A stretch of DNA of 64,000 bases from Blastococcus colisei (GTDB lineage: Bacteria > Actinomycetota > Actinomycetes > Mycobacteriales > Geodermatophilaceae), in NCBI RefSeq assembly GCF_006717095.1, contig NZ_VFQE01000001.1, positions 1,798,001 through 1,862,000 of the forward strand, written 5' to 3'. Within the stretch, counting starts at the first letter, position 1. Each line of letters opens with the position of its first letter. Below the pieces are notes generated by a model that ran no database searches, was not told where the DNA came from, and worked only from the letters and a program-made list of their open reading frames with translations. Of the stretch, positions 20,270-29,496 are shown in pieces. Both the position numbers and the translations under genes were made by a program.

Positions 20270-20473
20270 TCAGAGCGGCGTGACGTTCGCAGCCTGCGGG
20301 CCCTTCTGACCCTGCTCGATGTCGAACGCGATCCGCTGGCCTTCATCGAGCGAGCGGTACCCGCTGGACTGGATGGCCGAGTAGTGGACGAAGACGTCCG
20401 GTCCGCCACCGTCGGGGGTGGCGAAGCCGAACCCCTTCTCAGCGTTGAACCACTTCACTGTTCCTTCGGGCAT
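20270..20473 (-). CDS. Cold-shock domain protein
   Basis: 67 residues, one OB-fold. Both RNA-binding motifs are intact: RNP1-like [10 protein letters not shown] and RNP2-like VFVHYSAIQ. The N-terminus [12 protein letters not shown] is standard for CspA-type single-stranded nucleic-acid chaperones. AGGAG lies six bases before the ATG at 20473. Ends AANVTPL, the usual actinobacterial tail. Confidence 0.96.
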
Positions 20474-20631: not shown

Positions 20632-23292
20632 TCAGAGCGCGTTGCGCCCGATGTCGAGCCGGTCGATCCAGCCGCCCTGCGACTTCCATCCCGACCAGGT
20701 GCCGTTGGGGGCGACCTGCCAGATGTGCCAGAGCGCCTTGTCCGCGCCGCGGGTGAAGACCTCCAGCCGGCCGTCGTTGTTCTGGTCGACGTCGAGCTGG
20801 TCGATCCAGCCGCCGCGCGTGGCCCAGCCCGACCAGGTGCCGTTCGGTGCCACCTGCCAGATGTGCCAGAGCGCCTTGTCCGCGCCGCGGGCGAAGACCT
20901 CCAGCCGCCCGTCGGCGTTCTTCCCGACGTCGATCAGGTCGATCCAGCCGCCCCGGCTGGCCCAGCCGGACCAGGTCCCGTTCGGCGCGAGCTGCCACTT
21001 GTGCCACAGCGCGCCGTCGGAGCCGCGGGCGAAGAGCTCCAGCCGCCCGTCGTCGTTGCGGCCCACGGCCAGCCGGTCGACCCAGCCGCCGAGGGAGCTC
21101 CACCCCGACCAGTTGCCGTTGGGCGCGGTCTGCCAGCGGTGCCAGACGGCCTGGTCGGAGCCGCGGGCGAAGACCTCCATGCGGCCGTCGGCGTTCTGCC
21201 CGACGACGAGGTCGTCGATCCAGCCGCCGAGGGAGTTCCAGCCCGACCAGCCACTGTTCGGTGCGACCTGCCAGCGGTGCCACAGCGCCTTGTCCGACCC
21301 CCGGGCGAACAGCTCCATGCGCCCGTCGGCGTTCCTGCTCACCACGATCTTGTCGACCCAGCCGCCGAGGGAGTTCCACCCGGACCAGCCGCTGTTCGGC
21401 GCCACCTGCCACTTGTTCCAGACGGCCCCGTCGGAGCCGCGGGCGAAGACCTCCATGCGGCCGTCGGCGTTCCGCCCCACCTCGAGCATGTCGATCCAGC
21501 CGCCCTGGGAGTGCCAGCCGGACCAGTTGCCGTTCGGCGCGGTCTGCCACTTGTGCCAGAGAGCCTGGTCGGAGCCGCGGGCGAAAACCTCCAGCCGGCC
21601 GGTGGTGCCGGCGGAGGCCTGGCGCACCGCCGCGGCGGCGTCCAGGAACGTGCCCACGGGCTTGCCGGGATCGGGCGTGAGCGCGGAGCCGGTGACGCTC
21701 AGGATCCGCCGCACGTCGGCGTGGCTGAGACCGGGGTCCACGGCCAGCATGAGCGCGGCCACCCCGGCCACCTTCGGAGTCGCGCCGGAGGTTCCGCCGA
21801 AGCCGTTGCGGTAGTCGGCGTCGCCGCTGCTGTTGCAGGTGAGGTCGTGCGATGCGTCGCCCGGACAGGCGACGGTGATGCGGGGACCCCAGTTGCTGAA
21901 GCCGGCCCGCCGGTTCTGGGTGGCGTGGTAGGCCGTGGCGCCGACCAGGATCGACCCGGTCTCGGGGATGGCGTTGCCCGAGTCGTCGATCCCGGCGTCC
22001 CGGTCCCCGTTCCCGGCGGCGACGCAGACGACGACCCCGGCGGCGATGGCCGTCCGGATCGCGGCGTTGACCGACGGCACCTGCTCGTAGTTGCCGAATG
22101 CGCCGGTCTGCACTTCCAGGATCACGACCTTGCGGCGACCGCCGCTGTCGGTGGTCCGCACCCACTCGATGCCACGGGCCCAGGCGTTGCCGCCGAGGCC
22201 GGTGCCGGTCCCGGAGTCCGCCTGCACCGCCCAGAGGTCGGCGTCGTAGGCGACGCCGGACATGCCCCGGCTGTCGACGGCGGCACCGGCCAGCCCGGCG
22301 ACCGCGGTGCCGTGCGACACCGACCCGCCGTGGACGACGTCGGTCGTGCCGTCGAAGGAGTTGTAGGTCCGCCTGATCTTGGTCGACAGGTCCTGGTGCG
22401 TCGTCCGGTAGCCCCAGTCGACGTCGGTGATCACGACGTTGCGGCCCGAGGACCGGCTCCACGCCGTGTCCACGGTGCAGCGGAAGACGTACCACTGGTT
22501 CTCCAGGCCGGTGGCCGGGTCGAGGACGACCTGAGTGCTCGTGCCCACCAAGGGGTCCGACAGCGGGCCGGCGGGGGCGAGGTCAGGCGGGACGTCCTGC
22601 TGGACGTCGGTCTCCGCGTGCGGGACCCGCGGTGCGACGAGCGTCGGTGGGAGGGCCACCGGGACGGCCACCGCCCGTTCCACGTCGGGCAGCCGGCTCA
22701 GCTCCTCGGCGATCCGCGGGGTGTCCGCGTCGGGCGCGAAGTGCAGCGTCATGAACGCGGCGAGGTGCGGCGCGTCGATCCCCTGCGCCCGGGCGACGTC
22801 CTGGGCTGCGGTCGCGGCTGCGGCCGAGGTGGCGAACGTGGGCTCGGCCTGCACCAGGCCGAAGCGCTGCAGGAGGTCGTTCATCTCGTCCAGCGAGGCA
22901 TCGGCGGCGGCGAGGGACGGCGTCGTCCCGGCCTGCGCGAGCGTCGGGGTGACCCCCGAGCGGAACTGCACCTCGACGGTGCCCGGCTCGTAGGCCGAAC
23001 CACCGGCTCCTCCGCCGCCCGGCGGTCCGAACCGGGGCAGCTCCATCACGGCCGACGACGTCCCGGGCATCGCGGTCGCGGCCGTGGGCATGCCGGGCAC
23101 CGGCATGGAACCGGCCCCGGATACCTGGGCCTGGGCGGGTCGCGGCATGGCGTCGTCCCCAGCCGCCTCTCCCATGGACGGTCGCGGCATCTCGCCGTCC
23201 CCGCCCGGCTGGTCCGGTGCCCGGAACGAGGACGGGACAGGCATCTCGCCACCCTGGTCGTGGCCGTTGGAACGGGGTTCTGAGGCGGGCAT
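20632..23292 (-). CDS. Subtilisin-like S8 protease with seven-bladed PLL-like propeller
   Basis: 886 residues. Residues 1-90 are low-complexity with repeated MPxP motifs, then a possible prodomain (about 100-220). The S8 catalytic domain spans about 265-555 with Asp292 (DWGYRTTHQDL), His327 (VSHGTAVAGLAG), oxyanion Asn428 (AAGNGD) and Ser502 (GTSGATPKVAG). Residues 563-886 are seven repeats of about 46 residues (RLEVFARGSD, then ALWHKWQ, then SGWxSxGGWID), matching the PLL-like/DUF346 beta-propeller family, which includes fucose-binding lectins. No signal peptide is visible, so how it leaves the cell, if it does, is unclear. GAGGAG precedes the ATG. Confidence 0.88.
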   Translation of the reverse strand: MPASEPRSNGHDQGGEMPVPSSFRAPDQPGGDGEMPRPSMGEAAGDDAMPRPAQAQVSGAGSMPVPGMPTAATAMPGTSSAVMELPRFGPPGGGGAGGSAYEPGTVEVQFRSGVTPTLAQAGTTPSLAAADASLDEMNDLLQRFGLVQAEPTFATSAAAATAAQDVARAQGIDAPHLAAFMTLHFAPDADTPRIAEELSRLPDVERAVAVPVALPPTLVAPRVPHAETDVQQDVPPDLAPAGPLSDPLVGTSTQVVLDPATGLENQWYVFRCTVDTAWSRSSGRNVVITDVDWGYRTTHQDLSTKIRRTYNSFDGTTDVVHGGSVSHGTAVAGLAGAAVDSRGMSGVAYDADLWAVQADSGTGTGLGGNAWARGIEWVRTTDSGGRRKVVILEVQTGAFGNYEQVPSVNAAIRTAIAAGVVVCVAAGNGDRDAGIDDSGNAIPETGSILVGATAYHATQNRRAGFSNWGPRITVACPGDASHDLTCNSSGDADYRNGFGGTSGATPKVAGVAALMLAVDPGLSHADVRRILSVTGSALTPDPGKPVGTFLDAAAAVRQASAGTTGRLEVFARGSDQALWHKWQTAPNGNWSGWHSQGGWIDMLEVGRNADGRMEVFARGSDGAVWNKWQVAPNSGWSGWNSLGGWVDKIVVSRNADGRMELFARGSDKALWHRWQVAPNSGWSGWNSLGGWIDDLVVGQNADGRMEVFARGSDQAVWHRWQTAPNGNWSGWSSLGGWVDRLAVGRNDDGRLELFARGSDGALWHKWQLAPNGTWSGWASRGGWIDLIDVGKNADGRLEVFARGADKALWHIWQVAPNGTWSGWATRGGWIDQLDVDQNNDGRLEVFTRGADKALWHIWQVAPNGTWSGWKSQGGWIDRLDIGRNAL
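20635..21606 (-). repeat. Seven tandem 138-bp repeats encoding propeller blades
   Basis: Tandem coding repeats within the protease gene, each 46 codons, highly similar at protein level and visibly similar at DNA level. The blades differ mainly at a few positions (Gln/Gly/Lys after RGSD or RGAD; His/Asn before KW/RW/IW), which suggests recent duplication or gene conversion. Confidence 0.9.
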
Positions 23293-23476: not shown

Positions 23477-24094
23477 TCACCCCAGCCGGTGGAGCAGTCC
23501 GCGCCGGACGCCGGGCCACTCCGATCGGACGATCGAGTAGTAGGCGCTGTCCCGGATGGTTCCGTCGGCGGCGGTCGTGTGCGCCCGCCGGGTCCCCTCG
23601 AAGCGCGCGCCGAGGCGCTCGATGGCGGTGCGCGACCGCTGGTTGCGGGCGTCGGTCTTGAGCGTGACGCGCAGCGCCTGCCAGACGTCGAACGTGTGGC
23701 CGAGGAGGAGCAGCTTGACCTCGGTGTTCAGCGCCGTCCGCTGGGCCGACGCCGCGTACCAGGTGCTGCCGATCTCACCGACGCTCGGCGGCCGGGCGTC
23801 GTCCGGCACCGCGCCCCCCGGGCGGCCGAGGACCTCCAGGTCGAGGAAGCGGGTCGAGCCGACGACGGCGTCATCCCCTGCCCGGACGATGGCGAACGGG
23901 AGCACCCGCCCGCCGGCCTGCTCTGCGAGCGCCGTGCGGACGTACCCGGCTGCCTCGTCCAGGCCGTCGGGGACCGCGGTGAAGGCGTAGCTGCTGCGGT
24001 CCTCCGAGGCAGCCGCTGCCAAGCCCGGCGCGTGCGCCGCGGTCAAGGGCTCCAGGCGGGCGTGGGTGCCGGCCAGTCCGAACGCGCGCAGCAC
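23477..24094 (-). CDS. GNAT-family N-acetyltransferase
   Basis: 205 residues. The RimJ/RimL-like layout is clear: THARLEPLTAAHAPGL at the start, then FAIVRAGDDAVVGSTRFLDLE, and a C-terminal LKTDARNQRSRTAIERLGARFEG that binds acetyl-CoA. The GTG start at 24094 follows GGGAGGT by six bases; the frame continues open upstream but without homology. Substrate unknown; N-terminal or small-molecule acetylation is possible. Confidence 0.88.
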   Translation of the reverse strand: MLRAFGLAGTHARLEPLTAAHAPGLAAAASEDRSSYAFTAVPDGLDEAAGYVRTALAEQAGGRVLPFAIVRAGDDAVVGSTRFLDLEVLGRPGGAVPDDARPPSVGEIGSTWYAASAQRTALNTEVKLLLLGHTFDVWQALRVTLKTDARNQRSRTAIERLGARFEGTRRAHTTAADGTIRDSAYYSIVRSEWPGVRRGLLHRLG

Positions 24095-25410: not shown

Positions 25411-25591
25411 CGGCCGTCTTCGGTAGGAGCCTCTGTTATCCACCGGGCGACGAGGAAGGCCAAGCGGCATGAGCGACTCCGATGTGACCGCTGCCGCACA
25501 TGCCGCCAGGCTGTTCGCGTGGTCGGGCGACGGGGGGCGCAGCGTTCGAAAGCCTCTGGCTGCCCCACGACCATCGCATCACACTCTGGCG

Positions 25592-26764
25592 ATGGGTTGG
25601 ATTCGGGCCGGCTCCGGAACGTCCCCTCTGCGAAAGGCTGCACTCATCCTTGCTGTCGGCATCACTGTCACGGCATGCGGCGCGAGTGAGGACCCGGACG
25701 ACGAGAACCGCGCGAGCGGTCGAACTGCACAGATCCCGACGTCGACGTCCCTGCCTCCGACCGGCGGCGGCACGAGCACATCGCCTAACGACCAACCGCA
25801 GTCGCCGCAGAACGATAATCCCGCGCCCCGGTCCACGGCCCCTGGCGCCCCGGCCCCTGCCGCCCCGGTCCCTGGCGCCCCGGTCCCTGGCGCACCGAAC
25901 CCGAACCCGGCCCCTGGCGCCCCGGCCCCTGGCGCCCCGATCCCTGGCGCACCGAACCCGAACCCGGCCCCTGGCGCCCCGAACCCGGACCCGAACCCGG
26001 ACCCGGACCCGAACCCCAACCCCAACCCGGACCCGAACCCGGACCCCGACCCGGACCCCGACCCGAACCCCGACCCGAACCCCAATCCGGACCCGGACCC
26101 CGACGCGAACTCCAACCCCAACCCGGACCCGGACCCGGGCCCGGACCCTCCGGAGGATGAGCGGACGGTGATGGTGGCAGGTCCGACGCTGGGCGACGAT
26201 TTCAGCGCCGTCTTCGGCAGCGTGCCCAACCCTCCGACGCCGATCTGCACTCTCTTGTATCTCGGCGACACCAGCGTGCAGATCACGGTGGAGACCGTGG
26301 CGGTGGAAGCCCCCTTCATCACAAGCGAGGACTGCGCCAACAGTGGAGCGCCGGAAGGGCCCCTTTGTGCGCCCGGGGCTGTACTCACCGGCGTCACCCC
26401 GCTGAATGCAGGGCTAGACGCAGCCGTCGGATGTCGATTCGGCATCGCGCTCGGGAGCGAAGCCGACGACGAAGCGAACTACGAGGACGTTGCCGCCTCG
26501 ATGACCTTCTCGGCCGTCTGCACAGCCCCGGGGCCCAGCGACACGGTCTGCGGCGACTCCGCCGTCGTAGCGCTGCTTCCTTCGCCCTCGGCTCCCGTGC
26601 CGGTGACCTGGGAGGCGATGCAGGTCACGCCGCCGTGGACGTCGGAAGGGATGGCGGTCACTGCGCCGCTGCGCTACTGCGGGGCCACCGCCTACGCCGA
26701 CGCCGGCGGACAGCCCGACCATCCTGCGAACACGGGCGCCGAAAACGGCTGCACCGCCCCGTAG
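25592..26764 (+). CDS. Lipoprotein with long Pro/Asn/Asp-rich stalk
   Basis: 390 residues from the ATG at 25592. A basic start and hydrophobic segment (ALILAVGITVTAC) end in a lipobox, so the protein is probably lipid-anchored. Residues about 80-190 are low-complexity: APGAP/VPGAP units, then NPDP and DPDP units, likely an extended spacer across the wall. The C-terminal domain (about 190-390) has six or more cysteines and is otherwise unrecognised. The frame is open from 25469 but the extra residues would bury the signal peptide. Thirteen bases separate it from the next membrane-protein gene, suggesting an operon. Confidence 0.7.
   Translation: MGWIRAGSGTSPLRKAALILAVGITVTACGASEDPDDENRASGRTAQIPTSTSLPPTGGGTSTSPNDQPQSPQNDNPAPRSTAPGAPAPAAPVPGAPVPGAPNPNPAPGAPAPGAPIPGAPNPNPAPGAPNPDPNPDPDPNPNPNPDPNPDPDPDPDPNPDPNPNPDPDPDANSNPNPDPDPGPDPPEDERTVMVAGPTLGDDFSAVFGSVPNPPTPICTLLYLGDTSVQITVETVAVEAPFITSEDCANSGAPEGPLCAPGAVLTGVTPLNAGLDAAVGCRFGIALGSEADDEANYEDVAASMTFSAVCTAPGPSDTVCGDSAVVALLPSPSAPVPVTWEAMQVTPPWTSEGMAVTAPLRYCGATAYADAGGQPDHPANTGAENGCTAP
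25840..26150 (+). repeat. Low-complexity tandem coding repeats (APGAP and NPDP units)
   Basis: Short 6-bp and 15-bp units (CCTGGCGCCCCG-type, then AACCCGGACCCG-type) are repeated in frame through the lipoprotein stalk. Such tracts readily change length by slippage. Confidence 0.85.
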
Positions 26765-28365: not shown

Positions 28366-29496
28366 TCACCTGGCTGTGATGATCGACTGAACCCACGTCG
28401 CGAGGCCGGGGTTGCCGGGACGGTACGGCGGATCGGCGTCGTCCCAGCGGCGCAAGACGCTGCGGTCCAGCGTCTCCTCCACGGTGGTGCGGACCGGTCG
28501 CAGGAGTGGCTTGTTGAGCGGCCACAGGCCGGTGAGGCGGCCGAGTGCCGTCTTCTGGAAGTCGTGGATCGGCCCGCTCCACTCGGTTCCTCTGAGCGGG
28601 GCTTCCGGCGGATCGACGACGAGCCCCGCCGCGACCGCCCGGTCGACGATCCACTCCCGGGCCAGCAGCGACAGTGGGTTCCTGGTGGCGGGCTCGGACG
28701 TCCCGCCGCCACCGATGTTGCCGTGCGCCCCTACGAACCAGTGCTGCTCGACCTCGGTCCGGTGGCCCCGAATGGGTGTGGGCACGTCGGTCCAGAGCGT
28801 CGGCTGGAACTGCTTGCGGTGCTCGTCGACGGCGACGGCGTGACAGGCGACGTCGACCAGCCCGCTGAGGTTCGTGTCGTGGAATTCGTACTTGCTTCGC
28901 GTGAGGAAGCGCCCCAGGCCGGCGGGAATCCCGAGGCTTCCTACCGTGTCGAAGACCCCGATGAAGCGGATGCGCACGAGCCGTGAGCGCTCCAGGACGA
29001 GTCGATCCTCGGCCGTGCGCGCAGGCATCTCCCCGGTCTGCATCTCCCGCAGGCCCGGGGTCTTCCTGTCGCGGTAACGCTGGAAGACCTTCTCGGAGGA
29101 CATGTCGTCCGCGTCCAGGAGCCCGCACTTGGCGATCATCCCGGCCAGGCTCCGCGCGGTGAACGCTCCCCGGCTGTAGCCGATCAGGTAGATGCGGTCC
29201 TCGTCGGAGCGGTGGTGCTGCGCGATGTGGCGGTACGCCCGGCGGATGACCTTCTCCAGCCCTTGGCCGAACAGGCCGCCCCGGATCCGGTCGAACGGGC
29301 CGGTGCCGACCCCCTCGATGTAGCAGCGCTCCTGCACGAGGCCGGCCGCGTCGCGGGGCACCCGCCCGCAGATCTGCCCGACGTTGGTGTTGGTGTTGGT
29401 GTCGCTCCACGTGCCGTCGAGCAGCACCGGGATGTTGATGCCGCGGCGTCCTCCACGGGGCGCCATCCCAGGTGCGTCCGCCTTGGTCACGGTCAT
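28366..29496 (-). CDS. DUF2235 (Tle1-like) alpha/beta hydrolase
   Basis: 376 residues. The family hallmark LLDGTWSDTNTNTN near the N-terminus is followed by the nucleophile elbow GYSRG (Ser108) in YLIGYSRGAFTARSLAGM and later FIGVFDTVGSLG and the HWFVGAHGNIGGGG histidine/aspartate region. DUF2235 proteins include phospholipases delivered by type VI secretion in Proteobacteria. No secretion genes are near and no signal peptide is visible here. The ATG at 29496 has GAGGGG right against it, an imperfect site; an in-frame GTG at 29565 is less likely. Confidence 0.82.
   Translation of the reverse strand: MTVTKADAPGMAPRGGRRGINIPVLLDGTWSDTNTNTNVGQICGRVPRDAAGLVQERCYIEGVGTGPFDRIRGGLFGQGLEKVIRRAYRHIAQHHRSDEDRIYLIGYSRGAFTARSLAGMIAKCGLLDADDMSSEKVFQRYRDRKTPGLREMQTGEMPARTAEDRLVLERSRLVRIRFIGVFDTVGSLGIPAGLGRFLTRSKYEFHDTNLSGLVDVACHAVAVDEHRKQFQPTLWTDVPTPIRGHRTEVEQHWFVGAHGNIGGGGTSEPATRNPLSLLAREWIVDRAVAAGLVVDPPEAPLRGTEWSGPIHDFQKTALGRLTGLWPLNKPLLRPVRTTVEETLDRSVLRRWDDADPPYRPGNPGLATWVQSIITAR

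Follow-up and report, generated by a model that had tools for sequence, protein, structure and literature searches.

A leaderless Blastococcus subtilase that carries a seven-bladed PLL-type propeller and a Met-Pro tail

Gene and domain architecture

The window, a 64,000-nucleotide stretch of the Blastococcus colisei genome, contains at 20632..23292 on the minus strand a gene for an 886-residue leaderless subtilase with a PLL-type propeller, as defined by its open reading frame, Pfam and PDB sequence matches. The reading frame starts with ATG, and a ribosome-binding site, GAGGAG, lies 6 bases upstream. Residues 1–101 (22990..23292, minus strand) form a low-complexity tail with seven Met-Pro dipeptides and no hydrophobic signal stretch. 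The tail is followed by a propeptide-like α/β region (residues 102–217; 22642..22989, minus strand) that alignments show to be conserved among orthologues; a Pfam search with this region returned no match, and in the full-length model helices and strands alternate here at a pLDDT of 54–76. The Peptidase_S8 catalytic domain, located by Pfam and by alignment to subtilisin NAT, spans residues 283–534 (21691..22446, minus strand; 7e-27, 94.9 bits against a cut-off of 21.8). Seven blades of 46 residues, 138 bp each, make up the C-terminal propeller (residues 565–886; 20635..21600, minus strand).

The intact catalytic triad claimed in a first-pass annotation of this DNA is borne out by the alignment to subtilisin NAT, which places D292, H327 and S502 together with the oxyanion residue N428. 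All four residues are invariant across nine aligned orthologues. As in subtilases of MEROPS family S8 (subtilisin BPN'/NAT, mycosins), D, H, N and S follow in canonical order and a GTSxATP motif is present. Unlike in those enzymes, the Asp motif reads D-W-G rather than D-S/T-G, and no signal peptide is visible: within the first 60 residues the maximum 15-residue hydropathy is −0.47. The first 110 residues also lack any hydrophobic stretch of the kind expected for the Sec signal peptide of type VII mycosins, and assignment as a type VII secretion mycosin was rejected, with NCBIfam TIGR03921 giving 85.8 bits, under its cut-off of 278.75. A clear signal peptide is found in none of the orthologues, one of which (L061) has an uncertain start. 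From dN/dS values of 0.17 for the catalytic domain and 0.38 for the propeller, the latter is estimated to be under purifying selection. The protein is best read, from its sequence, as a leaderless subtilase, predicted to be regulated by its prodomain, that has a PLL propeller for binding. Literature searches found no paper describing a subtilase–PLL propeller architecture.

Distribution and genomic site

The gene is bordered by its downstream neighbour, a cold-shock-like gene (20270..20458, minus strand), and by its upstream neighbour, a GNAT acetyltransferase gene (23477..24094, minus strand; Pfam Acetyltransf_3, 1.2e-12). In genomes without the subtilase gene, the cold-shock gene lies close to the acetyltransferase gene or to a 71-aa gene, which identifies this position as a one-gene presence/absence site. 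The gene is present in 2 of the 16 genomes of the genus; within the class, the subtilase core occurs in 2 of 395 genomes. When 84,980 genomes were scanned with short exact motifs, a requirement that makes the count a lower bound, at least 15 loci with the core were recovered. They fall in Streptomyces, Burkholderiales, a Geobacter bin, Polyangiaceae, Nitrospirales, Gemmatimonadota, Planctomycetota, Acidobacteriota and others; for several of these loci the source is a metagenome bin that may carry a wrong taxon label. The earlier description of such a protein as uncommon therefore holds for the subtilase lineage (2/395) but not for the propeller, which is also found on leaderless matrixins and on another subtilase.

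In the same-genus copy (G032; L011:1498-4232) a frameshift splits the propeptide from the protease; either the gene is broken or the sequencing is at fault. A conserved operon or secretion partner was considered and rejected, as the propeller-bearing loci share no conserved neighbours. A phage origin was also rejected: annotated phages gave no match, and a search of viral contigs recovered a single propeller but not the core. Among plasmid relatives of the subtilase core, none carries a propeller.

Fold and closure of the propeller

Tandem Repeats Finder reports 138 bp × 7.0 at 20639-21601 (score 1033). The repeats start at residues 565, 611, 657, 703, 749, 795 and 841, and the seventh is the C-terminal end of the protein, in agreement with the first-pass count of exactly seven units spaced 46 residues apart. 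A PDB sequence search returned the lectins PLL, PLL2–PLL5 and PHL with E ≤ 5e-89, a value inflated by the repeats. The closed, seven-bladed PLL-like propeller that had been proposed is supported by structure prediction of residues 559–886 (mean pLDDT 88.5, pTM 0.87). When this model was compared with known structures using Foldseek and VIA-align, it superposed on PLL4 with a Z score of 43.9 and an rmsd of 1.3 Å over 313 aligned residues at 54% identity. PLL, PLL2, PLL3, PLL5 and PHL lie within four Z units of the PLL4 score, and the next family, BP39L/CV39L, follows ten Z units lower. We regard the architecture and fold as settled.

The repeat boundary falls just ahead of a blade's second strand. 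Based on this strand order, the first blade would be closed by an inner strand that the last repeat contributes, so that a whole number of repeats is needed for a closed ring. All five orthologues with a complete array, from the same-genus genome G032 and four genomes of other families, have exactly seven blades. The possibility of a sequencing or assembly collapse, raised at the outset, is made unlikely by this recurrence, as is an expansion. The Burkholderiales bin orthologue (L057:6257-8461) ends after three blades though its contig runs on; the array may have collapsed in assembly or may genuinely be short, in which case it would need to oligomerise.

The propeller shares its fold, seven blades, repeat of about 46 residues and 46–55% identity with the Photorhabdus lectins PLL, PLL2–PLL5 and PHL, and also aromatic inter-blade pockets and the lack of a signal peptide. 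The Photorhabdus PLLs have no signal peptide, yet PLL2 and PLL3 are detected in the extracellular proteome (PMC12203525). In contrast to these stand-alone lectins, the window propeller is joined to a protease as its C-terminal domain, and the blades contain no Cys to bridge subunits.

Age of the blades

The blades were initially described as near-identical and recently amplified. Their identity is lower than the first term implies, at 61–80% of residues and 72–83% of bases, and alignment of the repeats at the DNA level does not support the second. At four-fold sites the blades have an identity of 0.59 to one another, where codon usage by itself would give 0.54; between orthologous blades of the window and G032 the figure is 0.71. 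Silent sites thus appear nearly randomised between blades. Moreover, the best match of every window blade is the same-numbered blade of G032. Recent amplification is rejected on these two grounds, and the seven-blade array predates the split of the two species. Blades 5 and 6 of G032 are 91% identical in DNA, so local homogenisation does happen.

Binding pockets

In crystals of PHL, T194, W199, W214 and the V172 backbone build up each fucose site, and Met side chains, from Met60 and from Met1-Gln2-Pro3, fill two of the seven pockets (PMC5584973). In the PLL3 crystal Met1 occupies one fucose-type site, and the authors considered that these sites are perhaps not restricted to sugars (PMC6943638). 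PLL lectins have their N-termini on the face that carries the fucose sites (PMC5584973), and it is on the corresponding face that the protease joins the window propeller.

Both pocket Trp residues (W199 and W214 in PHL numbering) are kept in all seven window blades. Unlike in the PLL lectins, the Val172 position is a third Trp in 7/7 blades, and the Thr194 position is Ser in five and Ala in two; in the Streptomyces orthologues the latter is Ala or Gly throughout. The third Trp is found in 6–7 of the seven blades of other complete PLL-type members with a Met-Pro (MP) tail and in 0–2 of seven in PLL propellers without an MP array. The exceptions are L136, a propeller that has the third Trp despite having no MP array, and L062 and G110, which have MP arrays and propellers without the third Trp. 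At the galactose-type (polar) site of PHL, the residues R, E, H, stacking W, Q and loop W recur through the seven window blades, with N replacing H in blade 2 and a loop Ser/Gly varying among blades. Conservation of this site makes a lectin function plausible.

The Met-Pro tail

The Met-Pro dipeptides of the tail are at residues 1, 17, 35, 49, 63, 68 and 75, in sequences that include GEMPRPSMG and GAGSMPVPGMPT; shuffled tails contain 1.5 in the first 101 residues versus the 7 observed (p = 2e-4). Across eleven orthologues, 64 internal MP sites, mostly 13–20 residues apart, give the consensus MPx(P/G)(G/S). Met recurs at +5 in 42% of these sites; its overall frequency in the tails is 8.8%. In the full-length model the tail is disordered (pLDDT 25–30), except for residues 34–37 (EMPR), which are at or just above 50, no more than a hint.

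A scan of the organism's own genome with the MP-array pattern gave 28 matches, which does not exceed the 36 of the reversed-pattern control, and 5 of the 28 fall inside the subtilase gene. The matches at C1:231013-231167 were rejected as antisense to a GMTGTDAG-repeat protein, and that at C1:2621908 because of in-frame stops. No second in-frame array was found among the pattern matches translated. That the sole in-frame MP array found in this genome belongs to the subtilase gene speaks for a partner on the protein itself.

Co-occurrence of tail and propeller

Among orthologues from several phyla, an MP array is present in 11 of the 12 that bear a propeller and in none of the 6 that do not (Fisher p = 4e-4, uncorrected for kinship among these related rows). 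The proteins with both are those of the window, G032, L056–L062, L064 and L065; L058, L060 and L065 are cut by a contig end and were counted as bearing both. Neither is present in L063, L066, L067, L068, the Mesorhizobium protein L053 and the Microvirga protein L054, the last being truncated, which makes its lack of a propeller less certain. The exception, L069, comes from a bin and is frameshifted; its propeller is divergent, its tail short and free of an MP array. In the tree, the propeller-less L068 and L063 are nested within the propeller-bearing clade, which indicates that gains or losses repeat. In G110, a subtilase of an unrelated type, propeller and MP tail also occur together. Of 17 actinobacterial relatives retrieved for comparison, 9 are readable over their whole length, and these 9 terminate behind the catalytic domain and lack an MP tail. 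One G110-type subtilase, from Sinorhizobium chiapasense (L118:2557-4398), has no propeller and a different tandem tail repeat, NPPLGPGVGGAGPQ, of about 15 residues.

The leaderless subtilase core is also found in S8-S41 double proteases of Mesorhizobium (57% core identity) and Azospirillum, which differ in that a C-terminal S41 protease replaces the propeller and in having no MP tail. At L053:5569-13095, L054:5581-11018 and L066:6452-14702, the subtilase shares a cassette with a phospholipase D-like protein and another protein about 550 aa long; the cassette subtilases are S41-fused in Mesorhizobium and Azospirillum and truncated in Microvirga.

The tail–propeller rule seen among these subtilases does not cover matrixins with PLL propellers or the protein in L136. 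Leaderless matrixins of G047, G144 and a Paenibacillus amylolyticus plasmid likewise combine a protease with a seven-bladed PLL-type propeller and no evident signal peptide. They differ in being zinc proteases with a peptidoglycan-binding domain and no MP array, and their propellers mostly lack the GGW-motif Trp (0–2 of seven blades). The leaderless L136 protein (IMG/VR contig; L136:1906-4372), with seven closely similar blades, has no MP array either. Its gene adjoins a proline-rich repeat gene with GTAGTPPPPSGATAAGSQAGAGYV units, and a KRGA(L/F)PTPRSV motif lies near the start of both proteins; the proline-rich protein may be an array acting in trans.

Possible roles of the tail and the propeller

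The co-occurrence of tail and propeller suggests that the MP tail is a built-in ligand of the propeller. Taken with the crystallographic analogy, such an internal ligand would best explain the tail, the altered pockets and the correlation between them, and it is the reading we rank first, though tentatively and at somewhat less than an even chance. The subtilase would be made without a Sec or Tat signal and be kept latent by its N-terminal propeptide. MPx(P/G) motifs would most likely occupy the aromatic pockets between blades, either of their own molecule or of adjacent copies, and would thereby cap the pockets and hold a zymogen or oligomer together. Once lysis or an unconventional route has brought the protein out of the cell, tail cleavage or else methylated or deoxy sugars could free the propeller, which might then dock the protease on its target. 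Several observations count against this reading: the divergent propeller of L069 and those of the matrixins and L136 have no MP array, L062 and G110 have an array and no third Trp, nearly all of the tail is disordered in the full-length model, and the crystallographic Met contacts are M-x-P rather than MPxP and partly due to crystal packing. The broader proposal, that PLL-type propellers are peptide receptors too and that the seven cages hold the protein's own N-terminal MPx(P/G) array until glycans or proteolysis displace it and turn on or release the protease, is judged rather unlikely. Proteases of several phyla that pair MP arrays with such propellers would suggest that the Met contact seen in PLL sugar pockets, in part a matter of packing, can be a biological ligand, a point that short peptides could test, and would offer a model for how a leaderless protease stays latent and is then aimed.

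Ranked just after the internal ligand, and a strong rival at only slightly lower probability, is plain lectin guidance, in which the propeller recognises glycans that are fucosylated, O-methylated or of galactose type and concentrates the protease on a target surface, the MP tail being an unlinked spacer or export element. The closest solved relatives are sugar-binding lectins, the galactose-site residues of PHL are kept in nearly every blade, the propeller is under apparent purifying selection, and PLL2 and PLL3 are extracellular although leaderless. Left unexplained are the tracking of the propeller by the tail array, the loss of the fucose-contacting Thr and the strengthened aromatic pocket. 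Less probable still is that the tail serves as a sorting or loading signal for another protein (a carrier, a secretion or injection device, or a matrix) and that the propeller is targeting freight, the two co-occurring since only exported members need targeting. The lack of clear signal peptides would fit such a signal, as would the different tail repeat of the propeller-less Sinorhizobium relative and the motif shared between the L136 propeller protein and its proline-rich neighbour; that the propeller-bearing loci share no conserved neighbours, and that no second MP-array gene was found among the translated matches of the scanned genome, speaks against it. An intracellular subtilase for housekeeping or stress, in which the propeller is decorative and tail and propeller are neutral passengers or reflect shared inheritance, is very improbable: sporadic presence in the genus and the frameshifted G032 copy are what it would predict, but the dN/dS values of both domains and a blade number that stays at seven across phyla are not.

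Other features near the gene

A Tle1-like gene, which encodes a type VI secretion phospholipase effector domain, is located at 28366-29496 (minus strand), some 5 kb upstream of the subtilase gene. Near the G110 subtilase, at L025:13121-14233 (minus strand), a protein opens similarly to this Tle1-like protein. No Tle1-like gene was seen at the G032 locus, so a link to the subtilase is probably coincidence. A long Pro/Asn/Asp-rich tandem repeat with units of 15, 42 and 57 bases is located at 25836-26171 (plus strand), within an open reading frame for a putative secreted protein or lipoprotein at 25469-26764.
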